From Ascidia mentula (lineage: Eukaryota; Chordata; Ascidiacea; Phlebobranchia; Ascidiidae): a stretch of 64,000 bases of DNA. The translations under genes and the position numbers were made by a program. The notes under the pieces are model-generated. The model searched no databases. It was not told the DNA's origin and worked only from the letters and a program-made list of their open reading frames with translations. Positions 2,849-26,109 of this stretch are shown here, one piece after another; positions within the stretch are counted from its first letter, which is position 1, and the number at the start of each line of letters is the position of its first letter. The stretch is from contig OX387197.1 of NCBI GenBank assembly GCA_947561715.1, forward strand, positions 26,190,266 through 26,254,265, written 5' to 3'.

Positions 2849-4588
2849 TTAATTTAAATCCATGTACAAGTCTCCGTCCTTCCCTTGGAGGTTTACATAG
2901 AGGGAATCTTGCATGTTTTCGTAATTGTTGATGTCAGGGTATGGTTGATGTTGATTGGAAGGATGATTCTGCCGTGTTGGTTGGGTTTTGGTTGCTGGGA
3001 ATGTTTGTGGAACAATGTACGTGTCATCTACTTGACCTGTGTCTGCAAAGAAAAGTATCCATTGGTCTGTTAGATCTCTATCCTTTTATTTTTGTACTAA
3101 ACGTCCAGTTTTCGTTTCCTTAAATTTTTTTGCGACGTGAACACGTGAAAGAAAGTTTACTCACCTACTATTGCTGCAATCATGACTTCCGTGGGATTTG
3201 CCGCACGATTAAAACTGAAACCAAACGAATAACATCCGTAGGAATAACAAAAATAACTGTGATTTATATTCTGTTATAAATATGACATACTTTTCTTCGA
3301 TACGCCTTCGTGTTACCACACGATAAGTTACAATTCCAACCACCACAAATGCGGAAAACACCGCAACGGTCGAACCAATGATAGCTGGTAGGTTGTGGCT
3401 ACTGGGTGGCTGGTAGGTTGTGGCTATTCCTGTGACATAAAATACGTTGCGTGTTCTCACCATTTCTGACTTTTGATGAGAAAAATGTTCATGGTAATTT
3501 ATTTGCCCTGCTCACCATTAACCGTGGCTTTGCGAGTTTCCATGGTGGTTTGAGCTCCTGTGGTGGTTTCCCCAGTCATGGTATTCGGAATGGTGGTATC
3601 CATTCTGTTGGTTAAGTTTGTCAAATCTTCATCCAAGGTTGTGGTAATTAGTAAGGTTTGGTTGAATGGTTTCACTGTAGTTGTGTTTGTCATTATAACC
3701 GTTGTGGAACTTGTTACTGCAATACGTTTATAAAAAAGTAAATAATGTTTTTCAATCTAGAAAATACATTATTGATATTCAATGACTTTCGGTTTCGTAT
3801 CACCAACATAACAGATACATCACTTTATTACCATAAATCTGTTTTTGTTTGTTCGGGTTTTGTATAACAAAACTCTAAACAGATTATGTATGAAGTTTAA
3901 ACTATGTTAAAATACTTACATGCGGGATTTCTTTCACAAATATATCTCGAAGCAAATGAGCAAAGAACATCTCTCCATCTGTATGTTGTATCAAGTTCAT
4001 AAATCCATCCCATTATCACACAATCCTCATTTCCATCCTTGTTGTTTGGTTCGTTTGTAAACCACTGTCCACTATTAGCATTTGTACCATCCGTCCACTT
4101 AAAGTTGTTTGTTCCCTGAACTCGTGTTGCTCCGATGTAGAACGAGAATGGGGAAGCTTTATATCGTGTTTTTCCAAGAATATTTAAAAAGAAAAACACA
4201 TGGTAAATTAAAATCGAATTTAATTCATATGTATTTATATTCAATTGGAATAGGGTATTTATTTATGAATGATTTTTAGATTGGTCAATATTGATACGAC
4301 AAACCTTTTTACTATCGAGTAATCATATTTCCACCACAAACATAATAAATCTCTCTTAATTATCGGATTACCTGTCACTGTTCCAATCTTTCCAACCAAG
4401 AAGTTCAAAATAGCAGTTGTTTTAACGTTGGCGAGATGCGCATTCAGTGCACTGCATGCTGCTACAGCTTCTTTGTATGAATTAACCTTTGGGCCCATTA
4501 AATATTCGCGGTAGACGTCCAACTTATGCCAAGTTTGTCCAAAAACAACCGGTAGGAAATACACAAATAATGAAACAAGCATCCTCAT
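2849..4588 (-). CDS. Receptor A: C-type lectin type I membrane receptor with ITIM-like tail
   Basis: Six exons: 4372-4588, 3920-4156, 3516-3716, 3291-3429, 3165-3214, 2849-3042, with intron phases 1,1,1,2,1. Exon 1 has a signal peptide (to VVFG) and the first half of a CTLD (QTWHKL, CSALNAHLANVKT). Exon 2 holds the second half: FYIGATRV, EPN followed by NEDC, then WRDVLC and RYICER. EPN is the mannose-type calcium/sugar motif; the usual WND is WRD, so calcium binding is uncertain. Exon 3 is a Thr-rich stalk, exon 4 a membrane segment (AIIGSTVAVFSAFVVVGIV) followed by basic RRR. The tail has TYIVP, YENM (PI3K type), SLYVNL (matches the ITIM consensus) and LYMDL. About 344 residues. Vertebrate NK-type lectin receptors are type II, so the topology here is different. 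Confidence 0.82.
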
Positions 4589-4786
4589 CCGAGAAATGAT
4601 GTAAACTATGCCAAAAACTAGGATACAAATGCATTGCTCGCTATCACACTCGCTTGTTGCTATCTTATAGTACTTGTAATCACCAACAACAACCTTCTCT
4701 TAACATTTGACGAATGTGTACTGTTTCTTACATTTAGTGTTTGTTCTAACTCTAACTAAAAATTAGATTCTTTGTTTGTGTACCAA

Positions 4787-4800
4787 GTTACTATGGCAAC
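4787..4800. promoter_or_regulatory. X-box-like (RFX) 14-mer upstream of receptor A
   Basis: GTTACTATGGCAAC differs at one base from the RFX X-box form GTTRCCATGGYAAC. It lies about 200 bp upstream of the receptor A start codon. The same 14-mer occurs at 10377-10390. Function is not shown by sequence alone. Confidence 0.3.
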
Positions 4801-5273
4801 GTCCGAGAACTACTGCACGTATTTAGTAATTAGTTTTATCAGTCAAGGCCCTACTTTTTGCGAAGTATACGAAATTAAATTTTAAAACCTATTCAGCATA
4901 AAGCTTACTTGGCTGACTTCAAACTACGCTGCCTTTAATGCTGTGATAAGTGACATTACAGTGCTGTGAAACCTGGTGTTGGCGGAAGTAGTGGGTTTAA
5001 CAATAAATACACAAGGTACGTAATACTGTGTTGGATGGGAATGTTGTAGTTACGATAGTCAGGTGTTGCCAGTGATAACGAGTTAAATTTATGATTGTCA
5101 CCTCCACTGTTTCTGGCTTTATTATATGAGTAAAGTGGTCAATTGATGTTCGCCGACCGTTCTTTCGATAATATTTCTTATTTGTTGTGTTCGCTCGAAC
5201 GCATCATGCACAAACATACAACTCACATTAGATATTGACATACACAGCACACATTGGTATATGGGTACAAAAT

Positions 5274-7604
5274 CTATTTTATTTCCACATATAGACTGCC
5301 ATGATAAGCGCTACTGACTTCACGGCTAGTCAAATTAACATATTCTGGTTCTTGTGTGACGTCCTGGACAAGGTTTCGGTTCGTTTGCTGAGTGGTTGAA
5401 CAATATGGGTTGGTAGATGGGAATGTTTGCGGTACGATATAGGTTTCGTCCTGAAAAACCTTTTCCTCTGTTTTGGAAATAAACAAAATGTAAGCTGGTA
5501 TTCAACCTTTTAGTCGGGCGAGAGATGTTTAATTTTTAACCATGGCGATTAAAACTGTTTGTAAAAATAATTGATTTCAAATTGCTCGTGATCAACTGCT
5601 TACAAACCGACTAAACCAACATTTACGTACCATGGTTTTGATCCACAGGATGAATTGATTCTCGTGCTCTGTATGATAAGTATCAAGTATTGAAACGGTA
5701 TATTTCTTTTATTTTTTACTTTCAATGTTCAATCCAAAGGTTTTCATGAAGCAAAGCGGATAAGTTTTACGAATAAGGTTTGTCGAACCAACTTTGAAAC
5801 ATGGTTTACAGAAGTCCTCTTAATGCGTTCCATATACATGTAGAGTTTTCCACACAACGTACGTTACCTTCTTCTTTTACGTTGGCGTATTATGACAGAG
5901 AGAGCAACGGATACGATGACGACCAGCACTCCACCACCGATAGCCGACCCAATGATAATATACTGGCTGATGTTTTGATCTGTCACATTTACACAAAATA
6001 TAACTGAAACTTTCGCGTCGGCTGATGATGATTTATTTGTATTTTAGCTCCGTTTGTTTAACTTATATGTGCTGATGCATGTGTTTATATCATGAGGACT
6101 TTCCGGTTAAAATTATCATCAAGGGTCAGGCCCCCATTACTTTGCTATCACATGCTACACTGAAACGAAATCTTTTTGTTGGAGATAAGCTTTAAATTAC
6201 GCTTACGTGGAGATGTTGGCATATATCGAGTTGCTGATGCCGTAGAGTTTGTAGTTTCAAATACTAAGACGGAACTTTCATCCACTATCGAATCGTCATC
6301 TGTAGTTGTATCGGAGTGTAGTTTGTTGTCAGTGATGACAGTGCTTGACGCGGCAGCGATACTAGTGGTGGGTATGTTACTGCTTGCCGTGGTATGGACT
6401 GCAGTGGTTGCCGATGTACTTGTTGTCGTGGTTGTGGAGGATGAGGTAGATGTAGAAATTATATATGTTTGGGAACGTTAAAGCTCACGGAATAGAGAAA
6501 ATATCACAAACAAGACAGGAATCAGTATGCTTCCCCTGTTATTACCGACAGATTTTTCTTTACTGGCCAGGTATCCAAAATTACTGACAATGGAGTGGCG
6601 GACAAAAAGCGTCAGAGTGACATTTTATTATAAAATATATAGAAATATTATTTTTCCCTAAACGGCATCGTCACCATCATAAAATATAGCACCGAAGCTG
6701 CCTGCCACTCCTTGTAAGTAATTTTGGACGCTTATGAAATATTAATATAGATGATTCGGTAAAGTTTTAAGAAGCTCACCTGTGTTTCGTTGACAGATGA
6801 ACCTCGAACTTCCGCTGCATGTTACAACCCTCCATTTAAATTGTGGATCTAACTTCAGAGCTGAACCCATGATGACACAATTGCCAGAGCTAGGAAACTC
6901 AACGGAGGTCGACCATTCTTTTGTTACCACACTTGTCCCATCTGTCCATTTGAAAGATTCCGCTCCCTTAATGCGAGTGGCACCAATGTAGAAAGAGTAG
7001 GGCGAACCTGAGCGTAATTTTTTGTAGAAAAACTACTATTCATCGCAAATGTTCACTATAAGTTAAATACTAAAAACCGCAAACATAAAATTGAATGAAG
7101 AAAAATCTTTGACGTATTTTATTCTGGATTTAGAAGGTTGAATGTTGTATATATACGCCGGAAAGAACATAGCTTTTTATTTGTTTATGCTGATTTTGAA
7201 TTGTAATTACGAGGTTATATGTTTGAGATCTTTCCTTTTAGGTATATTTCTCGCTACTAGTTAGATACACTAAAGTTAATGTTCAGTTACATTTCTAAAC
7301 CGGCCATGTGTTACTTGTGTAAATATTTCAAATACTTTTGGCCAGTATGTTTATGTTACAACCTACCTTTTATAGTTCCGATAATTTCGACTAAAAAATT
7401 GAAAATTGATGAAGTTTTGACATTGGCTACAACTGCATTCTGATCACTGCATGACTCTTGTGCTTCTGCGTATGATTCGACTTTCTCCCCAACAAAATAC
7501 TCGTTGTCTTCAAACTTCTGCCAAGTTTGAGCAATCACATTGGGACATAAGAGACAAAGAAGAGCTAAGCATTTCATTGTTAGGAAAGCTAGCTTTAGTT
7601 GCAT
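5274..7604 (-). CDS. Receptor B: C-type lectin type I membrane receptor with ITIM-like tail
   Basis: Six exons: 7367-7577 (or start ATG at 7604), 6780-7007, 6207-6398, 5868-5979, 5631-5668, 5274-5467; phases agree with receptor A. MKCLALLCLLCPNVIAQ from 7577 is a good signal peptide; the ATG at 7604 would add nine residues. The CTLD continues with WQKFEDNEYFVGEKV, then FYIGATRIKG, CVIMGSAL, WRVVTC and RFICQR. The EPN/QPD position reads EFPSSGNC, so the canonical calcium/sugar site is lost. The stalk is Thr/Ser-rich; its start is taken at an internal AG because an in-frame stop precedes it. The tail exon is 194 nt, exactly as in A, with TYIVPQTFP, EYVNL and SLYVEI (ITIM). A and B form one subfamily by tail sequence. 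Confidence 0.8.
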
Positions 7605-8305
7605 CCGCAGTTTGAAACCTCCAGATAGATACTTTAAACACAAGTTTTTGAAAATGAAAGCAACCACAAATTGTAAAGAGAAACTCTACAATCCGATTTT
7701 TTGGAGTAGACTCCGCCAGTCGTATATAAACTCCTATATTTACCAAAGCTGCTTGCCAGTCGGGGTTATCTAAATTACTCAACATTTAGTTACAATAATA
7801 AACACACTGACCATAGAATGACCAAACGGGAAAGAGTGGGCAAAACCGGGAACCGCTCACTTACTGACTCAAAACTACGTCACGCTGCATAAATTCCGCG
7901 GCGACGTATCTTGTTTATTAGTTTGCTCTTACTCTCGAAACGACACACATACGTCACTAACCAAAGTAATCATTAGTTCGAGGTTTTACTCGCAAACGAT
8001 ATATCGCCCATGGTGTGTAAAATCAGAAACAATAGCATATTGGATGATTTTTCCGGGTCGTTATTCTTTGATAGCAAATGCATATGACAAACACATAGTC
8101 ATGATTCCTTCTGAGAACAAATTAAGGCATATGTAATAGGATATGTGATAATAATTTAAAATACAATCAAACATAAAAGAGTTTTGTTGCATGCGCATTG
8201 AAACATATTTGTTATTACCAGAAATTAGTCTTGTTTTACTCGTTCATCACCACTGAAATAAGCAATAAAGACTTTTTCGCACGCTTTAAAATGCTTTCTA
8301 GTCCG

Positions 8306-9629
8306 TTAGAAAAAGCTTAAATCCACGTAGCCGTTATCTTCTTCCGGACGTGTGCCGTCTGTCGCGTCAAATGCTTGATTTACATATTCAGGTACTTCAC
8401 GGTTCTGACTCGACTGATTGTTGCTGGTAGATTGCGAACTTGGAAAACTCCGCGGTATAATATAGGTCGGTTCTTCCGGCAGGTTATCTGTGTTAAAAGC
8501 AGGAACAGACTGATTTATGTTGTGTGAGTGACATTCTGTGTGTGTGAAAACACTGTAATATTCAAAACTCTGCATTATCTAACATACAATCTGCACCTGC
8601 CATACAGCTGTGTGATTTATAGAGTAATAAAAACACTGTGAGCTTCACCAATGGCAAGGTTATTGCCAACATATTTTTTAGGTTTATTTGCTTCACTTAC
8701 CGGTGCGGTTTAACTCTTGCGAGCGTTGGGGTAATGTCACTGATCTAAAATCATAAAGGAGATGTTGGTCTTGAGCATTGACTTGTAGATATTTGACACA
8801 GAGTAAAATGTAAGTGAGACACACCACCATTTTTACGTTTTTGGTGTGTCCTGCTAAGGACCCCTATAGCATTCGATCCACTAAACAACACAATGTTGCC
8901 ACTATCTGTACAGTAACTTAACCAATACTAAGTTAGCTTGCGTGGAAAGTTACAAAGTAAACAAGAGATACGCTAAAGGTGGGTACGTTTTTAGCTCTGG
9001 CGGCGTTGGAAAACGAAATTAATCGGAACATTGGTTTTACCTTTTACGATTTCGTGACAAGATGAGGAAGGTGATGAAGATGATGAGAGCAATTAGAATG
9101 GCTCCGCATACCACAACTACTGTAGCAACATATAACCAGTATCCCGCCATCGGGTTTGCAGCTGGATAAACACAAAATGACATTTAGGCAAGAGCGCCGA
9201 ATTTTCAGAACAACAATAACGGTACATTTATTACCTGACACGGTTGACATATTGGCTAAACTTGTAGTAGAAACCGTAGTTGTTACAGTATTGGTGATAG
9301 TTTGAGATGTATTCATATAATCTCTTGTAGACGGTGCAGTGGTGGCAAGCCCAGTAGAGGCATTTGAAACACCGGTCGTGACGATCGACTGCTGAATGTC
9401 ATTTGTCGAATCTGGCGAAAAGATGACAAAATGACAAATTGGACTCAATTTTTTTTATCGATTTAAATTTTTTTTATCGACAGAAACAAAGAAACTGTAT
9501 CCACATAACTTAAAAAAATAGCTCCACAAACAAGGAAAGCAATATAGCGTCTAGTATTAAAATTGCCCAGGTTTTGTTTCCATTTAGCATCACGCTTAAC
9601 TAAATTCCAGATTATTATTGAAACTTACA
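8306..9629 (-). CDS. Receptor C: CTLD-less paralogue (stalk, membrane segment, tyrosine tail), N-terminus unresolved
   Basis: Four well-phased exons: 9235-9411 (Thr/Ser stalk), 9041-9161 (membrane segment, YWLYVATVVVVCGAILIALI), 8701-8744 (linker) and 8306-8487 (tail). The tail has TYIIP, EYVNQAF and GYVDLSFF, close in layout to E and F. An upstream exon ending at 9629 with a strong donor (GTAAGT, phase 1) would encode a hydrophobic stretch KLLVTLSIFLHGARLSLS, but I find no in-frame ATG before an upstream stop, so the true start is unknown. No CTLD exon is recognisable between 9.4 and 10.4 kb. It may be a decoy/adaptor-like paralogue or a decaying gene. Confidence 0.55.
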
Positions 9630-9999
9630 GAATGTCAAGTTATTCAACACAGTTGTTTGTTGGTTGGTCGACATCGCTTGATTGCATCCAAAATAGATTG
9701 TTGTCGTTAGGGAAAGACTTAAACGAGCACCGTGCAAAAAGATGCTGAGAGTAACTAACAGTTTTGATTTGTTGAACAAATCCAATTTTCTTGTCACGTA
9801 TTCCTATACTAAAAACAACCCCCAAAATAGGCAAAAGTATATGTCATATCTAGCACAAAAGCCAAAATAATCGCTAAGCTTCTGGTAGTAGTGAAAATGT
9901 TTCGACATATAAATGTTTCGAAGTGTAATAGCAGTAGCTGGTGACAGTACCACTTGTATATTATTGGGGTGGCACTCGAGCCTATACCAGCAGTGAACA

Positions 10000-10560
10000 C
10001 CAAGCAGTGTTTAGCACCAAGTTTAGGTAACTAACAAATCGAAGTATCACAAAATGAACAATTCCGGTTCCGGCTTTAAAAGTCCCCAGTTGCATTGACG
10101 AAACCCTAATTTCATGCAAATTTTGTGCCAAAGGCATCTAATCAGATCTTCCAGAATTGAATGCAGTCGGCGCCCCGGGGCCCACCAGGGTCCTAGGAGG
10201 ACATAAATAGCAAAACGGGGCCCACGAGCACCATTGTTTTTCTTTAAATATTAAGGCTTTATAGCATCACGAACATTAAAGGCCTTAGATCACAAGGGTT
10301 TCATCAACAAAAAGTCCACTAGAACAGTTCACTTATTCTCCTGAAAAGTTTTATCCATTTTACACATGGTGTTGCAGTTACTATGGCAACACTTCAACCA
10401 CGAAACAAAATAGAGTTGTTGAGGATATTGAGAATCTACGCTGAACTCAGGTTTGATCGTTAAATTTGTTAACCTACTCCTGCGTCGATGTTGATGCCCG
10501 ATTTGAGAAATACCATGTGGTAAATAAATTGTTACTGATGCTCCCAGGCATATTTATTTC
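10000..10560. other. Intergenic region between receptors C and D, left part
   Basis: No convincing exon is seen. It holds a GGGGCCCAC pair near 10170-10225 and an X-box-like 14-mer at 10377. Confidence 0.5.
10377..10390. promoter_or_regulatory. Second copy of the X-box-like 14-mer
   Basis: GTTACTATGGCAAC, identical to 4787-4800. It is roughly 0.6-0.7 kb upstream of the first visible exon of receptor C. Confidence 0.25.
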
Positions 10561-10732
10561 TGAATACTTCACTTCTGGCAAACTTTATTTTATTGAGGTT
10601 TCTTTGTTTTTGTGCCTCAACTGTATCCACTGTGTTAACTTACGTTTCTTACCTCCTGATGAAGGCTGTTGCATAACAGCCGAAACGTTGAGAAACGTAA
10701 ATAAAATAAAGTTTGCCAGAAGGGCAGTATTC
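10561..10732. mobile_element. MITE-like element with 23-bp perfect terminal inverted repeat
   Basis: Positions 10572-10594 and 10700-10722 are perfect reverse complements (core CTGGCAAACTTTATTTTATT). Similarity extends outwards to 10561 and 10732 with two mismatches. Inside lies a second hairpin, GGCTGTTGCATAACAGCC, next to CCTGATGAAGG and CGAAACGTTG, a motif pair common in invertebrate dispersed repeats. No coding capacity. Confidence 0.7.
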
Positions 10733-10859
10733 AGCAACCATGTGGTAATAGAACAAACACTAACTAGCGACTTTCGAACTATGCTAACCTGATCGAAAGC
10801 AGCTGACCAACACCAAAAGCACCTGGCTAACATTACCAGCACCTGGCTAATGTAAGTGG

Positions 10860-12400
10860 CTGAGGTCAGGCAGAGTTAGACGAGATTCAGTGAAGGAAGC
10901 AAAGTTTTTCACCGGCATCAACACGGATGAAGTCGGGTTGGAGCTGCAATTTAAATGAATGATACATTGCGTCTGACAGGTGATTTATTACATTAAATCT
11001 AAAGCGTGGAGCAACTGCCGTACCGGAAGAACGTGTAGGAGCATTTACAAGGAAGCTTTATGTAACGTTAGACCAGGTGTTCCTGCGGAAAGCTTTGCAT
11101 GTTTTGTTCTGAGTTTGTGAGTATGTTCAAAGCTTCCTCGGGTGGGGATATCAATGTGCCACGTTGCCTGGCAACTCTTTAACTTTTCCCAACAAAAAAT
11201 TCCTTTCCAAAATAACGCCATTACATTTTCGACATTCAGACTATGTACAAATGATTAAAATTTGTATTTTACTTTCGAATTTAAAGACCAATATCTACTG
11301 CTGCAATATATATATACCAGACGGGCGGTAGATCTGTAACGCAGGTGTTCGCAGCGTCGAAATGCACGCTTACACATAGCGCACTTTATGATCCCGTTCA
11401 ACGTGATTAGTCATAAATATACCTTCATTCTGTTTTTGGATTGCACCTGATTGGTTGTCGGCTTATGTTGTGTTTAGCGTTGCGTTTATCCAAGTTGTAA
11501 GTCCTGCATTGGTTGTAAAGGTTGAATCTATAAACACGAACAGCAGGAATTAAACCATTTACCGGTTTAAAAATGACAATCGTGTCGGTAATCTTGAACT
11601 ATTTTCAGACAAATTCGTGCCCCCCTCCCCCCAAAAAAAGAAACGAATTAACCTCTTTACGTGTTATGGTTAACATGCTTTTTTATTATTAGGTACTGTA
11701 ATGGAATTTTTCGTCATTAATATTTGCTGTAAACGTGTGTCCAATTGTTCTTTATTGTGTCACTAGCTGTCACGAGTTTCCGCTTGAGGTGATTGGCAAA
11801 GGCGGGAAATTGTTACGTCACAATGGCCCCCTATTAATTGTCGTTTGGGATTGTTATGTTTGTTTGCTCACATTTTCTCCTTAATAAAAGTCGGAAGCAA
11901 CCCTGATGTTGTCGAGCATGCTAATGATAAAGAGAACATATTTGTGGTCATATGGTTTATTCTCCAGAGCACTGCATTCAAATACCACAGCATCTCTGTT
12001 AAAATGGTTTTATGACGTAATATAATTGGTGTATTTCCCTGAAACTTTTAGGAATGCAACAGTAATTCACATCGCGTCCGAAGTACATTAGGTTACGTTT
12101 AATGCTGCCGCAACGATGAATAGCAATACACAAAGATTTCGCCCGGTTATTCATGACAAAAAAATAAACCGGCGTAGACATCACAAAGCATTGAAGTGGT
12201 GCAAACATTCACTGCTATGGAGTTCGGACGCAAAACAGTGCTGGAAGAACACAGTTTATTGAAGCCATCATACATTTAAACAGTGCAAATAATGGCAAAG
12301 TAACAAGAGTATTAGGCATGGTACAATCGACATAAACCTATCATAAGATCAAGTAAATGAACAGTTTCATTGCAACAATGCGATTTCATACATAGAATTT
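10860..12400. other. Intergenic region downstream of receptor D, with one dispersed repeat copy
   Basis: No exon supported. The stretch at about 11762-11860 (CTAGCTGTCACGAGTTTCCG, then GGCAAAGGCGGGAAATTGTT and CCCCCTATTA) has a diverged second copy at about 20985-21055, so it is a dispersed repeat. A short poly-C/poly-A run is at 11622-11640. Confidence 0.45.
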
Positions 12401-12459
12401 ATATCTAAAGTATGGATAGGTATTTTATAACACACTGAAAATCAATAGATTCATTGATT

Positions 12460-15472: not shown

Positions 15473-15811
15473 TTCCCAACCGGTGGTACGTTTACCACTA
15501 GTGATATGCGACCGCATTTCAGGTGGTACGCGAGCACCTTTCCGTAATTATCTTAGCTCTCACTTGGTGGAACGTGCGTTCAGCGCATTCACCACTCTTT
15601 TAAATGGAAAAAGAAATCGTCTTGATATCGACAATTGAGGAGACTTGCGATTGTTTTTGTCCGACATGAAACCTGATATTGAGAAATTGGTGTCATTGCA
15701 CTAATTTACAAGCAACAATTAAACTCGTTGTGTTTTTGTCTGTTCTGTTGGGCGTTGTTAAATGACTAAGGTGTTTGGGGTGCGGTACTGAAAAAAAGTT
15801 TGATAAACACT
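15473..15811. mobile_element. hAT-like element remnant
   Basis: The left end CTGTTTCCCAACCGGTGGTACG matches the termini of the element at 13394-13611 in inverse orientation, and the right end AAGTTTGATAAACACTG is a diverged inverted copy. Flanks show no clear target-site duplication, so the ends have decayed. Confidence 0.5.
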
Positions 15812-15836
15812 GTCTAACGCACCGATGCAAGGGTAA

Positions 15837-16531
15837 AGGCCCGTTTACACTACAGACGATTCCGTGTTTGTTTTATTGTGCGCGTGTGCTGAGTTGTGCT
15901 GGGATTGGATGTGCCGGTCTGTGCTAGGATGTGCTCGCTTTTGCTCGACGAGCATAAATTCGGGCACAGTTGGGCACATTTCGGCACACATTGATGCTAA
16001 AGTGCAGCGCGACTGCCTAAACATGTAGGACATATATTATTTTAGTGGTGGTTGTGTGATTTGACCGCGTTTGACATGTGAGCGATTGTTTTGAGCGTAT
16101 GAAATGGTGCCGTAGCTGCATTACAAAGCGGTATGTGGAATGGCGTCTCAGCGGGATGCTGCTGTGGAAAACCATTGTCCTGGTTCAATTATACCATCTT
16201 TGTTTTCATAATGTGTAATGTTTGGTTCAATAAACTGTAGTGTTACCTTGCGTCGTAAAAAATTATGTAAAACAGTACATGTCTTAACTATGTAAAACAG
16301 TACATGCCCCTTTGTTCATAAATATCTACAGCCAGTAGAAACAACTTCAATTTGTACTTATAATATCGCTGGCGAGGCAGAGAAACGCAAGGCAAGAGTG
16401 ACATCCCTAAAAAATTATCAACGTAACTTGTCACTTGCACTTGTCGTGCTCGATTATTCCAGTAGTGTAAACACCGTGTGTGCCAGACTGTGCTGTGCCG
16501 TGCCAAACTGTGTTCGTGTGTAAACGGGCCT
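15837..16531. mobile_element. PIF/Harbinger-like MITE with TAA target-site duplication
   Basis: The element starts AGGCCCGTTTACAC and ends with its reverse complement GTGTAAACGGGCCT. Both sides are flanked by TAA (15834-15836 and 16532-16534), the 3-bp TWA duplication typical of PIF/Harbinger. It is 695 bp, rich in GTGC/GCAC words in its subterminal parts, and has no transposase. Confidence 0.75.
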
Positions 16532-16954
16532 TAACTCTACATAATGATTTACAAAAAAAACGCAACCGCCCCGACACATCTGTTATGTTCTGTTACCGTT
16601 ACAGACAGGACAGAGGGCAGCAAAGTCAGCATTTGCTTTCAAATGTCCGCAACACCTATTTTCTAAGCCATGCGTGACCTCGTGGTGACGACACAATCTC
16701 TGGATGAGTGCAAAGTCAGCGACCGAATCGAGACAGAAAAAGGGAATTTCGAGTGTTTGAGCGCGCATCACTTAGTAACAAGAATGTGTACCCAGAAAAA
16801 CGACCGATGCGAAAAGTACTAACGATTGCAAAACTACAGGTGCAGTTTGCTGGAAACGTATGAGTAGCAGGTTTAGGCCCAAAGCAGAACTGATATGGTT
16901 TGATTTAAACTATGCTTTCGAAGGTTAAGAAATTGATATACTAATGATAGCATT

Positions 16955-18736
16955 ATGCATGAATCCATTCGAGTGTTGACGACAAGGGATGAGGCAGATA
17001 TACGGAAATTACTGTTGGTGTATTTGGATGAAGAACCAACTTCGAAATGCGTCGGTTTGTCATCCCAAGAAAAAGAAATATTCGTTAAATTAAACTTAAA
17101 GGTAAAATGTTCTCTTATGCTTCATATGATATACTTCGAGGTATAAGGAATATTGGTGGTTTCATTACACTAGTGCTTGTCGTGGTTTTGTGTTTGTAAC
17201 GGTATTGGAGTTACAGTCGGGACAAACGACAAATCGTTGTTCTAATAGTGTATGCTTGCAAGCAGTATAACAGCTTAGAGCATGGGTGGATAGTAAGGAA
17301 CTGGTTTAAAATAGCTTGCGGTGTGATTATGACCTACAATATATTTCCTAGTGTGGTTGTAAATCGTACGTTGGTTTACTGTTGATCAACAAAGTCATTT
17401 TTTAAAAACGTATCAGACCTCAAAAAACGTTTATACAAACGTTTAGCGATGGATAGTGAACAACCAATATAGCACGTATGACTGTTCAAGCTGTGCACCA
17501 GAGATTAGGGCCACGGTAACTTGTGTTGAGACGAAGCGTTACCATCCCAACTACCGCGAAAATGTTTGATAATTAGACAACTTTATCTTCACCACGTGCG
17601 CATTTTTGTTGCAGAAAGTTGTTCCGCAAGGATTTTCACTGGGTGTGTTCAGTGCCCACTCAGATGAGCTGTGTGCATGTTCTTTGGTTTCAGACAGGAT
17701 CTACGACACGGATGCTGACAATAAATTTAATGAAAACACTCCAGGACTGAATAAATTAGTCAAGGTGAACCAGATCTCATCGAAAATAAAGATTTCTGAA
17801 AGCAATCCATCATTTTATATGCGCAAAAGAGCTATAATAGTCAATGAGAGCTGCAGACAGATGTACACACTGTTTCGACCTGTAAGGTCTCATCAGTGCA
17901 GCTGGTGACCGTGCACATGCTAGCTGTTAGACTAGCAACCACACAGATTTCCACTTTGTATAGTACCATCAATGTTTGATAAACATGACACTTACGTTCT
18001 TTTCAGTTTGATGATTTTATGTTGGGGGAAGCGCCACAATTAGTTCAGAATCAACGATATTTTCATCTGGAAGCGATTGTAGTTCTTCCCAAATATCAGA
18101 GATTAGGATTTGCCACCGTACTTACGCAAAGGTATCTTTCAACACAATGTGTTGCTCGGTAATTGTTTTTGGTTGTGGTCTAATTTTGGAAGATACTTAC
18201 ATTTCTTTGGACTTTGAGTGACTTTATTAATATAATATGCTGTTTTGTTTCTTATCACATTTATCGTGCTTTACCTTTCTGCCACATAAGCAACATGATA
18301 ACACAAAGTATGCTTGTAAAAATCGGTCATTTTGTGTTTTTGTATTTGGTCAAAAAATATCCATTGTTATCAAAGGTAAATACATGATTCAGTTATGCTT
18401 CACGTTACACTTGCTGGCAACGTAACAACGCTTTAATTTTTAGTAGCAACATCTTGTTGTTGATAGTTACAGTAAAGTAACATTTACCAGTAACTATCTT
18501 TTCATAGGAGCGAAGACATGGCCCTCAAAAACAATCACACGATACTGGTGTTAGTTGCAAACAGCGAGAAGTCACAACGATCGGTCAAAAAGTGCGGTTT
18601 TAAATTTTATAAGAAGGTCCTGTATAAGGATTATAAAGATCCAATGAGCGGTGAACAAACTTTCAGAAATATTCCACCACCACACACGGGCGCTGTTCTC
18701 TGCTATAAACAATTATCGGTGAAACAGAAAATGTGA
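16955..18736 (+). CDS. GNAT-family N-acetyltransferase (arylalkylamine N-acetyltransferase-like)
   Basis: Four exons: 16955-17101, 17615-17764, 18007-18131, 18508-18736, phases 0,0,2, giving 216 residues, a usual size for this family. The N-terminal VLTTRDEADIRKLLLVYL resembles the first helix of AANAT-like enzymes. Exon 3 contains the acetyl-CoA binding motif A: HLEAIVVLPKYQRLGFATVL, with the Q-x-x-G-x-A loop. Exon 4 has the C-terminal KKCGFKFYKKVLYKDY. Predicted role: transfer of acetyl from acetyl-CoA to an amine, in the cytosol; the substrate is unknown. Exon 2 could use a later donor at 17883, but that extension overlaps a dispersed repeat, so I prefer 17764. It is the only plus-strand gene among the minus-strand receptor array. 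Confidence 0.82.
17845..17908 (+). repeat. Dispersed ~55-bp GAGCTGCAGACAGATG motif, copy in GNAT intron 2
   Basis: GAGCTGCAGACAGATG ... TTTCGACCTGTAAGG ... GTGCAGCTGG. Related copies are at about 2545-2600, 57130-57180 and 58240-58300. The ends GAGCTGCA and TGCAGCT are inverted, so the unit can fold back. Confidence 0.55.
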
Positions 18737-18960
18737 TTAATCGCAGAAGACCAATGAGAGTCGATCTACACCAATAATTTTAAATCTAAACGAAACTATC
18801 ATCTCTTCAAATAAAATTGAATTTGAGGAGATGTGGTGATGGATGACATTCCATTTTGGCTACGGACTCCGAACTGTTCGAGCAAGTAAAATCTAATAAT
18901 AGAGGAATATTCATTAACGAGAAAGTTTGATCCTTGGATCTGAACGGAGGTTTTAAAAAT

Positions 18961-18968
18961 TGACGTCA
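18961..18968. promoter_or_regulatory. CRE/ATF palindrome in repeated context
   Basis: TGACGTCA within a copy of the same roughly 80-bp stretch found upstream of receptors D and F (GATCTGAACGGAGGTTTTAA on its left side). Here it lies downstream of receptor E. Confidence 0.25.
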
Positions 18969-19383
18969 CTAATCACTTTCGTCACATTCAGTATTTTTAT
19001 CATCTGTGTATAAAGTGTTGCTCATCTTTATGACATTAAATATTTAGTGTGTTTATGGTACGTATGAGTCAACGCAACAAAGGAAAGACGGACGTTCGTA
19101 TTGTAAAATTCTTTAGGGCCTCAGAAAGTTCGCTAGCAATACAGAAGGACATCATCTCTATTGTTCACTCCATGGCACGCAAAAAATTTACATATTCATA
19201 ATTCTTTGAAATTACAGTGAAGGTAAATCCAGTGTTGGCGTGTGTGGGAGTAACAAACGGTTAGAATGTATAACCCGTTTATTATCAACCATGCAAAAAT
19301 GCCGTACAAAACAGAGTCAAATAAGTAATTTATACAACTTTTCTAGTTCAACATTCAATATGACAAAACCAAGAAGAAAAAGT

Positions 19384-20228
19384 TCACAAATCTGGAGAAA
19401 TGGGTTTTGAGTAACTTCTTTCGTTAAAATTCATTTCTACGTATTCGCAATCTCCACTCGACTGTGAAGTTTCTGACGTATGGAATGCGTTGTTTACATA
19501 TTCATGAAACTGTTGGTTTTCGTAGTGAGGTTCCTGATCCTGACTTGTTTTAACTCCAGCACCAGAGTCTTGCGTTCCTGTTAAATGAAGCGAATCACCA
19601 GCCCTAAAAAAACATTTTAATTGTTAGTATTGAAGAATTAATTGATATAATTCAAACAAAGCAATGCCTTCACCTTTTACGCTTTTGTGACATCACACAG
19701 TAAAAGATGAGACCGGTAAAAGCTATTATGACGATGACACCAAAAACGGAACCGATCACAATCAGCAGAGTGGCGTTGCTTTTGGGAGGTGGATTTGTGG
19801 CTAAAAAGATGTTCTTTGTTTGGAAAAATTAACTTCAATTATTAGTTATTTAATTAGATGCTTTACAATTAAGTGCAATATGTCGATTCTGAAAGATGGC
19901 TAGCAATAATGATTGACAATACCCAACAAACTATTTCACAAAAGGAAAGGCTGTATTTATATTGATTCAATTGTTTAACGGGTTCATAAAGTAATGAAAC
20001 TGTCTCTGTATGCTTACAGTATGTAACCTTGTAATATATCCATAAGGAAGGTTAGCAACCACTTTCAACCAACTATGATTGCGTGTTAGCTTAGCGTCAC
20101 TCATATTAACACTTTATTTTTCACTTACACAGCGTAAAGTTTGCCGAAGCACTCGTTTCCATTGACGCAAGGCTGGAGTGAGCACAGTACAGAAATAGGC
20201 AGCGAATAATTAATAAATTGTGCTCCAT
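19384..20228 (-). CDS. Receptor E: short CTLD-less paralogue with tyrosine tail
   Basis: Three exons: 20129-20228, 19674-19800 and 19384-19603. Exon 1 (ATG at 20228) encodes a signal peptide, MEHNLLIIRCLFLYCAHSS, and a few extracellular residues. The next exon is the membrane exon of the family (NATLLIVIGSVFGVIVIIAFTGLIFYC, then QKRKR). Linker and tail exons are fused into one frame. The tail reads HYENQQ, EYVNNAF, EYVEMNF and extends further than F. No CTLD or stalk exon can be found in the 328-bp intron. The result would be a single-pass protein with an ectodomain of about 20-30 residues and a full signalling tail, plausibly a partner or adaptor chain. Phase-1 symmetry explains the loss without frame damage. 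Confidence 0.7.
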
Positions 20229-20402
20229 GTTAAACTAATAAAAAGCTGAAAACGACAGAAAAATCTCAACATTTGTGACAAACAAAACAGTAACCTTCAC
20301 AAAAACAGTGAAAATGTTTACGCACCATCAATTTCGTTTACTGGCAGCTTCTCAATCAGGTTTATCTGATCTAGTAGAGCACTTGGCGACTAATACAAGT
20401 AA

Positions 20403-20618
20403 ATGAAGTCATACAGTGCAATGGTTATAGAGGCACTGAAGGAAGCGAATTTAACACGAGCATATACGCGACAAGCAGTGGACGGAACCGGAATATGTGA
20501 TATGTCACATCGGACAGATCATTCATTGCATTACATTAAGATGGTGGAACGACGTAGACGTTTGCCGCAAGTTGTGATGAAACTTTGCATGATTTCTTTC
20601 AAGTTAGACCGCAAATGA
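20403..20618 (+). pseudogene. Possible degraded linker-histone (H1/H15) domain fragment
   Basis: The 71-codon frame contains SYSAMVIEALKEAN, YTRQAV, then DHSLHYIKMVERR, PQVV and a final SFKLDRK. The order and spacing resemble the winged-helix of linker histones (YxxMI-x-AI-x-AL, S-x-x-AI, SFKL near the end). Several core positions do not fit, there is no basic tail, and the frame is closed by TAA just before the ATG. If the likeness is real, it is a retropseudogene fragment upstream of receptor E; otherwise it is a chance frame. Confidence 0.3.
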
Positions 20619-20984
20619 GGACAGATTCCGTCCTCAAAAAGCAAAATTTATCCGGCAAATCTTCGAATGTTGCATCCCCTACTCCTCAAGGGGCTGATAA
20701 CTTTGAACGTCAGGTTTGCAACCAATGCGTTGCAGCCAACTTCAACAGATTCTGACTTGTCATGCAATAACATGGAAGACAAGGTAAACATTAAGCTACG
20801 CAAACCGTGTCTACCAGACACCACATTACACTACTTTCATACAATTTAATGATCCCCAAATTACGTAAACTTGTATTCAACTATATTCGTGTTATGTGTT
20901 ACATAATATAAACGTTACCATCCCGTTTCCACCACTACTGCTCGTTTAGGCGGGTGAAAACGGTTTGGATATCTTCCTTCTTAC

Positions 20985-21115
20985 ACTAGCTGTCAAAAAT
21001 TTCCGCTTTAGGGTGTCGGCAAAGGTTTGGAACAGTAGACGTCGCAAATGGACTCCCCATTAGTTCACTGTTTCCCAGCCGGTGGTAGGCAACCACAAAA
21101 GGTTGGGAATCACTG
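20985..21115. repeat. Dispersed repeat copy followed by a very short hAT-like element
   Basis: 20985-21055 is a diverged copy of the repeat at 11762-11860. At 21066-21115 two hAT-type ends, CACTGTTTCCCAGCC and GGTTGGGAATCACTG, face each other only about 20 bp apart, like an internally deleted element. Confidence 0.5.
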
Positions 21116-21341
21116 GGTTAGTTACATGTAGCGGTTTGTGGCGTACATTTGCTATGACAAATATCACAAAAAACGTAACTCGTGTTGAAATTAATATTCT
21201 TGTTTATTGACATCCATAAACACGTTTAGCCCAACAATAGAATGACGGGGCATAAATTGTAGGGTTTTATAAACCAACACGTAAATTTTTAGCAAAAGAG
21301 CAGTAAATTTTTCAAATATTAACTTAATTGACACCAGTTGT

Positions 21342-22990
21342 TTATCGGAAATTCATTTCCACATAGTCGTAATCTCCATTCGACTGTGAAGTTTCTGACG
21401 TATGAAATGCGTTGTTTACATATTCATGAAACTGCTGGTTTTCATAGTGAGGTGCTTCATCGTGACGAGATGATTCGTGATCACGTGGATATTGATTTGG
21501 CACCTCAACCGGCTCATCAGGTAGGTGGTTGAGTCGTATGATAGAAAACAAAATCAAGCAAAAACCTCCTGTACTGTGTATATAAGAGAAGGGGTATTTC
21601 AACGTATATATTAAGATAAATACCAACCGTCAACATTTCTTTCATCCGAAAGTCCCATCAAACCTTCAGTTCTAAAAGATTCAACATACGATATAAGTTA
21701 TGTCAGTGGTTCTTAATTTTTTTGAGTTACAATTATTTTAGTATATGTCCATAAAACCACGCCAGTTTGCCTGGTGTAACCAATAGATATTCAGGTGAAG
21801 GGTGCTAATTAATATTTGTACACACGTCTCGTTTTTCGTCAAGTAAACCGCTCCATATTTAACAAACGCCTGCGGAGCTATCGTGTGACGTCACGAACAA
21901 ATGTGACGCAAGCCCACGTCTGCAATCTAGCTAAATGTTTTGGCATATTCAAACTAATCTTTCCAAAAACTAATGTGCGGTAAATATTTCCTCAACAACA
22001 ATACGTGACGGGAATTGACCAGTTTGTTCTTACAGTTTTTGTCCTTGTGACGCAATAAACATACAGACAATGGCTAATGTTGCGATTAGAACGATTCCGA
22101 CAACCGGCATTCCGACGATCAGAGCAAGGTTACTTCGATGTTTGTTTGCAACTGAAACACAAGGTGGCTTGAAATCATAGACACAGAACTACGGGTCTCA
22201 CCTGTTGAAGTAAATGCTCGTTTGTTTTGAGACGTTTTTGTGGCTGAAGTTAATGCAGTTGTGAATACATCAGTGTTTATTTCGTTGATTGACAAAGCGG
22301 CCGTCATACCAGCGGTTGGTTGAGCACCCTTTATTTAAAAAACAACCAATACTGTATTTTGTACATTTTGATTGTTTTCGGTTTTTTTCTTTCCAAAAAT
22401 TACTTCTAGCCTTTGGTTTTTGTTAGAAAAATGGTGTTAGATTGAGCTTACAAACAAAAATCTCCTCAAATTTCGCTTCTAACGAATAAAACTTCTCCAC
22501 TGTTGCCGACCTGTAGCGTTCCTTTCACAAATATATCGCCCTCTTGTACTGCAAGTCACGTCCACCCAATTGTTAGTTGGAAGAACATTGGAACTGAAAA
22601 ACATTTGTACACACTTCTCGTTTCCCTCCAAGTTATCAGGTTGTCCTGCAAACCACAAAGGATCCTTAACAGTTGTTTTTTATCTGTCCAATTAAAGTTG
22701 TTAGTCCCCTCTTGCGTGTCGCCCCGATATAATATCCAACTGCATCTATAAGTGTAATAGTTTTAATTTATCTCACAGTGCAAAGCGAATTTGTCCTCCA
22801 AAAACGAATAGATTTCCAGGCTTTTGACGTTTGCCAGATGTGCGTTTTGTTGTTTGCACTCATGTGCAGCGTCTCCGTGCAAATATACGTTCGGTCCAAC
22901 GGAGTATTCACTTCCATTGAAGGAATGCCATGTTTGTGATACGGCAACAGGCAAGAATGTAATGCCCACAATAACAACTAGAGGTATCAT
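21342..22990 (-). pseudogene. Receptor F: C-type lectin receptor paralogue with frameshifted CTLD exon
   Basis: Recognisable exons: 22777-22990 (signal peptide MIPLVVIVGITFLPVAVSQ and TWHSFNGSEY, CKQQNAHLANVKS), 22511-22745 (CTLD second half), 22202-22243 (shortened stalk; a longer version to 22328 is out of phase), 22034-22151 (membrane), 21628-21671 (linker), 21342-21568 (tail). In exon 2 the family sequence runs through all three frames: YYIGATR, then TNNFNWTD, then GQPDNLEGNEKC, VDVTC and RYICER, implying two indels. Its donor (GTCGGC) and the linker donor (GTTGGT) are weak. The tail HYENQQFHEYVNNAF and DYVEMNF is almost the same as in E. Exon 2 is phase 1 on both sides, so skipping it would still give a product. 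Pseudogene, or a CTLD-disrupted but expressed locus. Confidence 0.65.
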
Positions 22991-23599
22991 ATTTGTTGTA
23001 TTCTTGTATTCGATAGAAGCATCAAGCAATAGCACGTACAAATTAAGACTGTCCATTGGGTAATACAACCGTGGTTTTATAGGGAATGCGGCTAATCACA
23101 TTCCTATGCAATCAACGTTGGAATGTTTACAGGGTGCGAAATCATACGATACAGGGTACGAGAAATGTTACACTTCAACGATCACAACAATATGTTTGTT
23201 CATCCCACGGTAAGTTTATCTCTCGTAACTTTTTTCTTAAGCCCACGTTTGTTATACAATGTTATTGGATGTTTCATCTAACTACAGCATCTTTGGTGTT
23301 GCTGAAAACATAGAATAGCGCAGTTCAACACCAACATAAATGAACAAGAGCAAACAAACTGACAATATATAGACCATTCCCCATCACAGTTTGCAAAGCT
23401 GTGGAAAATATTTGTCTTCGTTGGTCGTATAAAGCAGACAACCTGACAACTTAAACTCATTTGCTAAAAGGTTCGTATTTCCACTGCAATGCACACCTTT
23501 TTGTCATAAACAAACATCTGGTTTATTGTGAACTAGTTACCAGCACAAATGCAATCTCTACAACCGCGGCATATAGGATCTGAACGGAAGTCACAAGCA

Positions 23600-23607
23600 T
23601 GACGTCA
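23600..23607. promoter_or_regulatory. CRE/ATF palindrome upstream of receptor F
   Basis: TGACGTCA about 610 bp upstream of the receptor F ATG, preceded by GGATCTGAACGGAAG, as in the copy at 18.93 kb. Confidence 0.3.
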
Positions 23608-23938
23608 CAAAAGTCATTTGACACTTTAATAATGTGTTTGACTGATGCCGGTTTCCACTTGAAGGTTGTTATGAACATTGCATGCCATTGGTTGGAACAT
23701 TTAATCTGGTTCACACAGTGGTAAATCGTCGTATACGACTGCATGTGACACCTGCATGTCCACGCCAACTTACACTTGGCATTTTCAATATTTTACATGG
23801 TACCGAAACATGTGTGAGAATTCAACCGACAAACCATATAACGAAACGTTTGAATAAATAATTTGCTTACACCTTTAAGCATGGGTTTTAGTCAAATTCC
23901 TCATCGTTGTGTACAACGGATGAGGGTAACGTTCGTTG

Positions 23939-26109
23939 TCACTTCCAAGATTTTGTTGGTAATTTGGCTCCACTACAGGTTGCGGTGGGTTGCTGGTGGT
24001 TTGAGGCCACCGAATCGCGCTGCAGTACATTGTAGATTTCTGCTTCTCGATCGTCAGCGCGCTTCAAATTGTCATAAACTTCCGCTCGGGAGGAATCGGT
24101 TGTGACGTCATCGGTATTGTTGTCTGGATTTTGTGTGACTTCATAATGGGCTTCGCGCTGATTCGAGGTGGCGTGGGGTGCTGAAAGAGTTTCGACGCAG
24201 ATATCTGCTGGCTCGTAATCGTTGACACGACCTAAACATGTAGATGGCATCGAAATATTTTAGTTCGTTCATACACTTGTGTTAATGCAGAGACCGCCAA
24301 CCGAAATAAAGATCCTTGTGAGCTACAGATGCTGGCCATTGTTTTGTCCTAACAGGCCCATGTGTGCAACTGATGTGACTTTTCAAGACGACTTGGCCGG
24401 CCATACGGTTAGATCAAAATAGTGGCCATCTGTTTGCAGCTCAGAGAAATCATATTATTGGCTCCACTTTGCTTATTTTTACTGAGATCCATTCACCAGT
24501 TTATTGCACTACCAAAGTGGAACCAACTAAAAGCTGCAAAATTTAGATTTAGACACAATAATATGCGTTAACTGCATACAATTTAATCACTGCAATGAAA
24601 TTCTCTGACCAGTGAATCTGATAGCCGCATGCGGATCCGAGAATCAGGTTTATACCAAATGTCTGATAAACAGGTAAATGCCGACTTTTAGTTTTAAAAT
24701 TCTTCGCAACTTTACTGGACGACTTGCATTTGTTCAATACTCTTCGGCTTGTCAAAGGCATAATTTGTTGAGAATAAATTGTGGTTTGTGAAATGATATT
24801 TACCTCTGCTGACACCGTTTACCGCACCTGGAAAATTCATCGAACCATCAGCCCTGGAACAAAATAGTCGAAAGTTCAGCAATTCACATTTACCAACACT
24901 GACGTACATTTATTAATGCACGAAAATTGTTTGCAATATAAAACATGGCTGTGAATATCCTGTAATACACGTTAGAGCGATGGAAGAATCCAAAACTTTT
25001 TTTAAAAACAAAACTTCGATAGGCTTCCCAGCCAAGCTGAACAGAAGGCGAAACATAATTAATCAAAGTATAACACTTAATTGTGGCAGAAAAACATATT
25101 ATTTAATATACAATATGTCTGGCAGTAACATAATACCTTGTTCTTTTTCGTTTTTGTCGCTTAGCACAGGAAACAATAATGATGCAGACAATAGCAATTA
25201 TGACGATCACACCAACAACCGAACCGACCACAATCGGTGGATTTGTGACTGAAATAAAGTGAGACAGTTTCAAATGTACTTGAATTAAGAACTCTTTTTT
25301 GTTTAAATGTCAATGTTTTTTGTGGTAATATAGTTAGTAACCAGCAAAATTACAAAGATTCAACAGTTTTGAAAGCTCTTTTTTTCAAGGTATAAATGTG
25401 CAGACAAAAGAAAATATGTTTTTTGTATAGTTATTATTGACCACGTTTGTAAATGCTCAGCACACGTGATATTGTCAATTTTGCTTTACGGAGGAACAAT
25501 TGGAATACTTTACAGAACATAGAAACATTTTACCCTTTACGCTTCTTTCACAAAGGTATCTGCAAACATGATTGCAAACGGTGTCCCGCCATTCGTATGT
25601 GGAGGCAGAATTATTTTGCCCCATTCTCACACATTCCTCATTTGACTGGAGCGAGGGTTGGTTACGCTTCCACTTTGCATACGTAACATTACTACCATCT
25701 GTCCACTGGAAAGTATTTGTTCCTGGAACTCGAGTTGCTCCGATGTAGAAACAGTGCGGCGCCTCTTTACACAAATTACAAAAAGTCAACAAAACATTGG
25801 ATGAATTTTTCAATATAGCATGGTTCGAACTTATTGTTAACAACTGAAAGTGTTTTCTCGAACAAATGTCAATGTGAAGAAAAAAAATCTACCTTGGGTT
25901 CTTTCGATATCCTGCTTCAAAAATTGAAAGATTTCTTCTGTTTTAACATTGGCTGCGTGCGCACCAAGTTCGCCGCAGGTTTGTACAACTTCGTTATACG
26001 AATTCACTTTGGGTCCGACCAAATACTCAGCCCCATTAAAAGAACGCCAAGATTGCGACACGACGACGAATGGGGATATTATGATCAAAATCGAAGTAAA
26101 TAGTATCAT
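23939..26109 (-). CDS. Receptor G: C-type lectin type I receptor with ITAM-like tail
   Basis: Exons 25893-26109, 25534-25764, 25137-25248, 24804-24853, 23939-24231; phases 1,1,2,1. Exon 1: signal peptide MILFTSILIIISPFVVVSQ, then SWRSFNGAEY and GAHAANVKT. Exon 2: FYIGATRVPGT, NQPSLQSNEEC (QPS at the sugar-site position), WRDTVC, RYLCER. It joins straight to the membrane exon (VVGSVVGVIVIIAIVCIIIV); no stalk exon is found in the 285-bp intron. The tail is the longest of the family, about 97 codons, and unlike the others: YEPADI, HYEVTQ, then VYDNL and IYNVL separated by ten residues. YxxL-x10-YxxL approaches the ITAM pattern (usual spacer 6-8, up to about 12). An activating counterpart to A and B is plausible but unproven. 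Confidence 0.78.

Follow-up and report, generated by a model that had tools for sequence, protein, structure and literature searches.

A tandem array of seven receptor genes in the ascidian Ascidia mentula forms the edge of a much larger family of type I lectin receptors whose genes are clustered. The genes, here called A to G, occupy 2849-26109 on the minus strand of the window (the whole 64,000-nucleotide stretch that was analysed, positions 26,190,266 to 26,254,265 of contig OX387197.1). An earlier note on this DNA had described an array of seven; the tandem array is real, while the number is an effect of the window, and a self-contained cluster of seven was rejected because the family continues on both sides. 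Judging from their sequences, we consider it likely that A-G and their relatives are germline-encoded type I receptors that signal through tyrosine cassettes, probably in blood cells and against microbes or non-self. A typical intact member is predicted to carry a signal peptide, one CTLD encoded by two exons, in most cases a stalk rich in Thr/Ser, a single membrane helix with basic stop-transfer residues, and a tail with tyrosine motifs.

Structure of the seven genes

Spliced frames running from ATG to stop were obtained for five of the seven genes (A, B, D, E and G). Introns are GT-AG in the joined models, the ectodomain exons are phase 1-1 and the membrane exon ends in phase 2. After the membrane exon, A, B, C, D and G have a short exon that restores phase 1; E has none, its membrane exon passing directly into the tail exon. 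The common exon order and phases that the earlier note had proposed for all seven genes were therefore confirmed in the five complete frames, but no ATG was found for C, and F was not joined. Type I orientation was read from the sequence: a hydrophobic leader (signal peptides were judged by eye) lies directly upstream of the CTLD, the membrane exon lies downstream, and basic residues follow the membrane segment on its C-terminal side. This order of leader, CTLD, membrane and tyrosine tail bears out the single-pass plan suggested earlier, which resembles that of natural killer (NK) lectins with the topology reversed.

Gene A (4588-2849, 345 amino acids; all coordinates in this section are on the minus strand) consists of two CTLD exons (4588-4372 and 4156-3920), a Thr-rich stalk exon (3716-3516), a membrane exon (3429-3291), a short exon (3214-3165) and a tail exon (3042-2849) with YIVP, YENM and the ITAM YVNLQGKDGDLYMDL. 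Gene B (7604-5274) is built in the same way from 7604-7367 and 7007-6780 (CTLD), 6398-6207 (stalk), 5979-5868 (membrane), 5668-5631 and 5467-5274 (tail, with YIVP, YVNL and an ITIM-like SLYVEI); its stalk exon is in frame and skippable, giving 333 amino acids with it and 269 without. Gene D (14648-12460) was joined as a complete frame without a stalk from 14648-14432 and 14368-14138 (CTLD, lacking one nearly invariant Cys), 13848-13737 (membrane), 13339-13293, 13030-12855 and 12570-12460, its tail (within 13030-12460) carrying YVNS, YEDI and YSQV. Gene G (26109-23939, 300 amino acids) comprises 26109-25893 and 25764-25534 (CTLD), 25248-25137 (membrane), 24853-24804 and 24231-23939 (tail, with the ITAM YDNLKRADDREAEIYNVL). 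In-frame, phase 1-1 stalk exons exist for A, B and D, that of D being a possible exon at 14070-13966 with a weak donor, and no Thr-rich stalk exon was found for G. The idea that B and D can be joined solely without a stalk was dropped, since a scan of all in-frame acceptor/donor pairs gave usable stalk exons in both.

The remaining three genes lack an intact CTLD, as the earlier note had it. Gene C (9779-8306) has a hydrophobic leader (9779-9629), a stalk (9411-9235), a membrane exon (9161-9041), a short exon (8744-8701) and a tail (8487-8306) with YIIP, YVNQ and YVDL; its exons join, and the HMM scan found no CTLD exon. Gene E (20228-19384, 148 amino acids) encodes a leader and very short ectodomain (20228-20129), a membrane segment (19800-19674) and a tail (19603-19384) with YENQ, YVNN and YVEM, and has no CTLD in the Lectin_C scan. 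In gene F (22990-21342) a first CTLD half (22990-22777) is accompanied by a frameshifted second half (~22512-22747) spread over three frames, with a membrane segment at ~22033-22152 and a tail at ~21533-21342 (YENQ, YVNN and YVEM). F is probably a pseudogene or a CTLD-less transcript.

The four CTLDs that had been called readable all matched Lectin_C (PF00059), with E-values of 3.4e-17 (A), 3.3e-13 (B), 4e-14 (D) and 9.8e-14 (G). Among the seven proteins scanned, A, B, D, G, P2 (a gene described below) and one class II gene passed the cut-off and E did not; no other Pfam domain, Ig and sushi included, exceeded it. The calcium-site residues are EPN and WRD in A, neither in B, QPN in D and QPS in G. 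Gene A matched PDB lectins at 4.6e-15, and the best sequence matches there were to several CTLDs of the mannose receptor family. This family is type I; its members carry many CTLDs per chain, the present proteins one. A search of gene A against a protein collection returned 962 candidates, none at E<=1e-3. Since gene A does match PDB lectins, animal proteins are probably scarce in this collection, and the lack of a hit carries little weight.

A wider complex with three tail cassettes

At least 160 CTLD loci, broken ones included, fall in five arrays at 22.40-27.64 Mb of contig OX387197.1 (C1), out of at least 211 CTLD loci obtained by merging matches less than 700 bases apart; most of the 160 are CTLD matches alone, and membrane exons were read for 32 genes and for five elsewhere. 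The 32 genes, each with a second CTLD half (CTLD2) and a membrane exon, come from the 314 kb examined, and five of them lie in the window. The same plan recurs at C1:22.45 Mb (two genes), C1:25.68 Mb (one) and C71:18.57 Mb (two genes, of which one has a CTLD interrupted by a stop). The genome also holds two CesA-GH6-like loci, as in tunicates.

Three tail cassettes recur: YILP/YVNI (class I), NYDVI/YVN (class II) and ladders of at most 16 tyrosines and eight overlapping ITAM pairs. Class II goes with Asp/Glu in the membrane segment and with a mostly lost calcium site. Acidic membrane segments occur in 12 of the 32 genes, 11 of them with an NYDVI tail and one unassigned, against 0 of 20 neutral-membrane genes with such a tail; D was scored with the tail of C, and E shares F's group, but the counts stand because none of the C, D, E and F tails has NYDVI. 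EPN is kept in 16 of the 32 genes, namely 2 of 12 acidic-membrane versus 14 of 20 neutral ones (Fisher p 0.009, for paralogues that are not independent). The ITAM ladders and the acidic-membrane class are located outside the window.

Selection on tails and CTLDs

The tails evolve under constraint; in two of the three classes the second CTLD half is under less of it. For classes I, II and ladder (n = 8, 9 and 6 genes), median dN/dS was 0.21, 0.46 and 0.39 in tails, taken from genes outside the window, and 0.49, 0.53 and 1.00 in CTLD2. The exception is class II, whose tail is barely tighter than its CTLD2. On a CTLD2 tree of 31 sequences, six changes of cassette class are needed where the least possible is two, and starred branches force at least two changes for the acidic class; of its 28 inner branches, 5 carry a star and 14 are open. 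Both the dN/dS analysis and the tree omit five of the 32 genes, whose CTLD2 is split or short. The tree indicates that cassettes have moved between CTLD lineages. With ectodomain exons of phase 1-1, swapping CTLD and tail cassettes, or skipping the stalk, would leave the frame intact.

The ladder-class CTLD2, with dN/dS above 1 in 7 of 15 pairs around its median of 1.00, also fits a family that labels the individual during fertilisation or when tissues meet, and is not antimicrobial. Colony allorecognition in Botryllus points the same way, as it uses diversified type I receptors with ITIM or hemITAM tails according to the account in PMC12065747. We regard such gamete or allorecognition receptors as unlikely here; their mechanism would overlap with that of the immune receptors we favour, the ligand being what differs.

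Tyrosine motifs in the tails

ITAMs (Yxx[LI]x6-12Yxx[LI]) and ITIMs ([ILVS]xYxx[ILV]) were counted and compared with shuffled tails. The ITAM count of gene A was equalled in 0 of 2000 shuffles and that of gene G in 0.2%. Pairs above chance were found in A, G, P2, the L008 tail and three ladder tails, one of which (26345) sits behind an in-frame stop at the tail start, and not in B, C, D, E, F or the class I and II tails tested. P2 is a ladder gene with a complete frame of 580 amino acids, 16 tail tyrosines and eight overlapping ITAM pairs (0 of 2000 shuffles as high); six successive motifs are spaced exactly 13 residues apart. Strict ITIMs occurred in 3 of 13 tails: A, B and a class II tail contained a single copy apiece, at shuffle p 0.12-0.21, and the other ten had none. 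P2, counted outside that set, had none either. Motif counts in tails B-F were mostly not above shuffles (lowest p ~0.02). ITIMs were consequently rejected as the dominant tail motif, and an inhibitory arm of the family is weakly supported, as strict ITIMs are rare and not above shuffles. Of the ITIM/ITAM/YxN tails described earlier for A-G, the tyrosine motifs as such held up; ITAM-spaced pairs shrank to A and G, and strict ITIMs to single copies in A and B.

Such tails might also serve uptake. YxxPhi motifs, including YxxL, are AP-2 endocytosis signals, and a single one is enough; neither YVN nor YxxP sites are of this kind. As endocytic or scavenger lectin receptors, the proteins would use YxxL/I/V for AP-2 sorting and take up glycoproteins or microbes without ITAM-type signalling, which agrees with the mannose-receptor-family matches and with the retention of EPN in half of the CTLDs. 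We consider this somewhat less probable still, given the 16 tail tyrosines of P2, with six motifs at the 13-residue spacing, where one YxxPhi would suffice, the YVN and YxxP sites outside the AP-2 type, and two genomic loci of Syk layout, each an open frame (646 and 605 amino acids) that matches two SH2 domains and a kinase.

That most copies are pseudogenes whose frames are remnants of recent duplication is very improbable: the broken F, the copy at C1:26122585-26123454, the truncated copies, the stop-bearing C71 copy and the stop in the 26345 tail would suit a decaying array, but tail dN/dS medians of 0.21-0.46, splice phases conserved across copies and complete frames in A, B, D, E, G and P2 argue against it.

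Discussion

The family looks like an immune receptor system built unlike that of natural killer cells, and the best reading is that its receptors are mainly activating, analogous to NK lectins and outside that family. The NK-complex lectins of vertebrates (KLR, Ly49) are likewise clustered single-CTLD receptors with activating and inhibitory tails, some without a calcium site; unlike A-G, they are type II, with an N-terminal tail and the ITAM usually on a separate adaptor, whereas A-G carry the tail on their own chain. Layilin is type I, and we know of no ITAM ladder in group VIII or XV CTLD proteins.

Among tunicate systems, the Botryllus FcoRs described in PMC12065747 come close, being a large type I family of many genes that lie in haplotype clusters and encode tails with ITIM, hemITAM or core Yxx[ILV] motifs, but the ectodomain given there combines IgV, sushi and a pair of C2 Ig domains, against one CTLD here. 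CD94-like lectins (Botryllus CD94, CiCD94-1) are tunicate blood-cell CTLD receptors; in PMC5465252 they appear as single genes, and Botryllus CD94 as type II. A Halocynthia haemocyte glycoprotein cited in the same source is an ascidian blood-cell membrane protein with two ITAMs, active in phagocytosis and aggregation, but is one protein, with no CTLD named there. Bimlec (group XV), set beside layilin/MT-75 (group VIII) in PMC514892, is type I with one CTLD; these are few genes, not arrays. Because Bimlec-type proteins and the FcoRs are already type I in these sources, type I topology is not new in itself and novelty by topology alone was rejected. On the earlier suggestion of an undescribed build, our literature search, which left most subscription papers outside, turned up no array of type I CTLD genes with ITAM or ITIM tails.

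For the immune receptors proposed here, the CTLD would bind a microbial or cell-surface ligand, a glycan where EPN and the W-x-D calcium residues are kept and probably a protein where they are lost. Ligand-bound receptors would cluster, Src-family kinases would then phosphorylate the tail, and the cassette would determine the output: ITAM pairs (A, G and the ladder class) may recruit Syk-type SH2-SH2 kinases, YVN sites Grb2-type adaptors and YxxP sites Crk-type adaptors. The Asp/Glu-membrane class may pair with a partner that has a basic membrane segment. The receptors probably act in blood cells, as germline-encoded sensors of microbes or non-self. According to the review PMC12065747, Botryllus ampullae express homologues of Syk, shp-1, Grb2 and Crk.

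We see an about even chance that the whole constitutes an independent tunicate lectin complex of perhaps more than 100 working genes. It would match the logic of the NK complex and not its build. Its type I chains would bear three interchangeable cassettes of their own (Grb2/Crk-type, acidic-membrane partner type, and an ITAM ladder in which as many as eight pairs overlap). These cassettes would have recombined with diversifying CTLDs via phase 1-1 exons, and two Syk-type kinases would read the chains. Among living animals, tunicates are the nearest relatives of vertebrates and, to our knowledge, lack antibodies and T-cell receptors. CD3-zeta carries three ITAMs; if the proposal is true, a ladder of 16 tyrosines on one chain would make an unusual natural amplifier of signals. 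An array of germline lectins with ITAM-type tails would then illustrate how large activating families, clustered in the genome, come about outside the vertebrates, and a separate origin of lectin-ITAM-Syk recognition from that of the NK complex would become directly testable.

Gene models and tyrosine motifs of the receptor array

The window (G000:C1:26190266-26254265) lies within a 195.8-Mb genome of 79 contigs. Rebuilding the seven minus-strand receptor genes A-G one exon after another bore out the shared exon phases described in an earlier note. Genes A, B, D, E and G gave ATG-to-stop frames with GT-AG introns; in gene C the stalk, membrane and tail exons were open in one run, and this rebuilding found no ATG start. 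A scan placed in-frame phase 1-1 stalk exons in gene B (6398-6207; 333 aa with the exon, 269 aa without it) and gene D (14070-13966), and found no Thr-rich stalk exon in gene G. The C-type lectin-like domains (CTLDs) that had been read in A, B, D and G all exceeded the Pfam cut-off as Lectin_C, the only family to do so there, and the CTLD of gene F is indeed broken, its second half (CTLD2) lying across three frames. For B, E, G and a class II protein, Pfam also gave sub-threshold hits to other membrane regions.

The ITIM/ITAM/YxN tails ascribed to A-G held in part. ITAM-spaced pairs occur in A (YVNLQGKDGDLYMDL) and G (YDNLKRADDREAEIYNVL), the motif scan found none in the tails of B-F, and strict ITIMs, one in A and one in B, were not above shuffles. 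The tails of E and F each carry two YxN and one YxxM motif. Among SH2 domains, YxN is preferred by Grb2, YxxM by PI3K and YxxP by Crk.

Adjoining gene A on the minus strand (window 100-1900), exons resembling a SEA-type and EGF-like mucin-type protein were seen by eye. Upstream of the array are satellites of 190 bp (47 copies, 29818-38805) and 32 bp (87 copies, 39144-41967). A full-length 5S rRNA gene (117.3 bits) occupies 53780-53898 on the minus strand. Elsewhere in the genome, two CesA-GH6-like loci combine a GT family 2 match with a partial GH6 match on the same strand, at C71:8043861-8047068 (2.4 kb apart; GH6 E 9.2e-6) and C52:18244911-18249069 (3.5 kb apart; GH6 E 1.1e-4, internal TGA). 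To our knowledge, a CesA-GH6 fusion is known from tunicates only, and these loci support a tunicate origin of the genome.

Family size

Genome-wide, the Lectin_C profile, gene A and a local scan gave at least 211 merged CTLD loci, a count that takes in broken copies, most loci being known from CTLD matches alone. At least 160 of them fall in five arrays on the window's own contig, at C1 22.40-22.96 Mb (at least 66 loci), 24.30-24.53 Mb (at least 6), 25.34-25.70 Mb (at least 38), 26.04-26.40 Mb (at least 36) and 27.30-27.64 Mb (at least 14). We read 264 kb containing the window and 50 kb beyond, where 32 genes, 5 of them inside the window, have both CTLD2 and a membrane exon. The same plan recurred in two genes at C1 22.45 Mb, where an HMM gave the CTLDs and some of the membrane segments were recognised by eye, in a pair at C71:18.57 Mb, of which one has a stop within a CTLD half, and in one gene at C1 25.68 Mb (L008).

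At C1:26.050-26.090 Mb (L009-L012) and C1:26042176, three plus-strand CTLD receptors are spaced by ~16.8 kb and alternate with CTLD-less genes with tails YVNSPRTVHYQNDTDYVNF (two units read). Near-identical copies of a 125-aa open frame recur every ~5.35 kb at C1:26294957, 26300304 and 26305651 (L027-L028).

Tail cassettes and membrane classes

The tails form three cassettes. Class I combines a neutral membrane segment with YILP or YIVP, HYETTQ, YVNI and EYMDF, and gene A is a diverged relative; class II has Asp or Glu at one membrane position and NYDVI-PDYVN-AYM tails. The membrane segment was acidic in 12 of the 32 genes, and the NYDVI tail was present in 11 of these 12 (the twelfth is without an assigned tail) versus none of the 20 neutral genes. 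EPN occurred in 2 of the 12 acidic genes versus 14 of the 20 neutral ones (p 0.009 by Fisher's test, although paralogues do not count as independent). WRS or WRT stood in 9 of 12 acidic genes, the same place reading WRD, WND or WMD in 16 of 20 neutral ones.

The third, ladder class lies at C1 26.345-26.389 Mb. Its gene P2 has a joined frame of 580 aa (one GC-AG intron, the rest GT-AG) that includes a Thr-rich stalk and a tail containing 16 tyrosines and 8 overlapping ITAM pairs (at least 8 in 0 of 2000 shuffles), with exact 13-residue spacing between six successive motifs; the motif scan found no ITIM in this tail. Three other ladder tails carry 7, 8 and 5 pairs and the L008 tail 4, in each case as many in 0 of 2000 shuffles; in the tail with 7 (gene 26345) an in-frame stop precedes the pairs, at the tail exon start. 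With the L008 tail as query, 23 of 27 matches, including L008 itself, fell at C1 25.37-25.69 Mb, 15 of the 23 spanning the first half of the query or less. The ladder was seen there in L008 only, and is suggested for others.

Selection and cassette exchange

Among gene pairs with dS 0.05-1.2 (8, 9 and 6 genes of class I, class II and ladder, respectively), the median dN/dS was 0.21, 0.46 and 0.39 for tails, 0.49, 0.53 and 1.00 for CTLD2, 0.78, 0.60 and 0.69 for the first CTLD half (8, 7 and 5 genes), and 0.57, 0.32 and 0.62 for membrane exons. Class I and the ladder class show a clear contrast, class II a slight one. The CTLD2 median of the window genes was 0.41 from two usable pairs, and the class tail medians include no window-gene value. 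Within tails, tyrosine columns had a mean identity of 96-97% versus 67-90% for other columns.

On a CTLD2 tree of 31 sequences, 27 of them local and 4 from other sites, there were 6 changes of cassette class, where 2 is the minimum and shuffling gave a mean of 14.3. At least 2 changes involving the acidic class are required by starred branches, which are only 5 of the 28 inner ones. Gene 26153441 has a class I tail, yet lies within the starred class II CTLD clade, and genes 26166791 and 26108084 have class II tails, yet lie outside it. Exon-level exchange or unequal crossing-over is the most economical explanation.

Putative Syk-type kinases

Two loci, C67:7964865-7966748 (646 aa) and C67:7976934-7978697 (605 aa), each match SH2, SH2 and tyrosine kinase in a single open frame. 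Both are apparently intronless, and ~12 kb separates them. Shark-type kinases have ankyrin repeats, for which the 168 bases between the SH2 matches of the first locus are too short. The predicted layout is that of Syk/ZAP-70, and the product is likely an ITAM reader. In Botryllus, ampullae express Syk, shp-1, Grb2 and Crk homologues, according to a review (PMC12065747).

Comparison with known systems

Vertebrate NK-complex lectins have their logic in common with the Ascidia family; they are type II, whereas the Ascidia genes, tested for that topology, did not show it. We know of no ITAM-bearing arrays among vertebrate type I single-CTLD proteins, and a search of part of the literature turned up no account of type I CTLD arrays that bear ITAM-type tails. 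The NK-lectin-like plan with reversed topology, as first proposed, stands in its logic and orientation, but type I single-CTLD proteins as such already exist in vertebrates, Bimlec and layilin/MT-75 being examples (PMC514892). The nearest tunicate system is that of the Botryllus FcoRs, which are type I receptors bearing ITIM, hemITAM or core motifs and, unlike the Ascidia CTLD family, carry Ig and sushi domains (PMC12065747). In the genome sequence of this one species, the architecture, family size, selection pattern and likely ITAM reader together suggest a probable immune role for the family.
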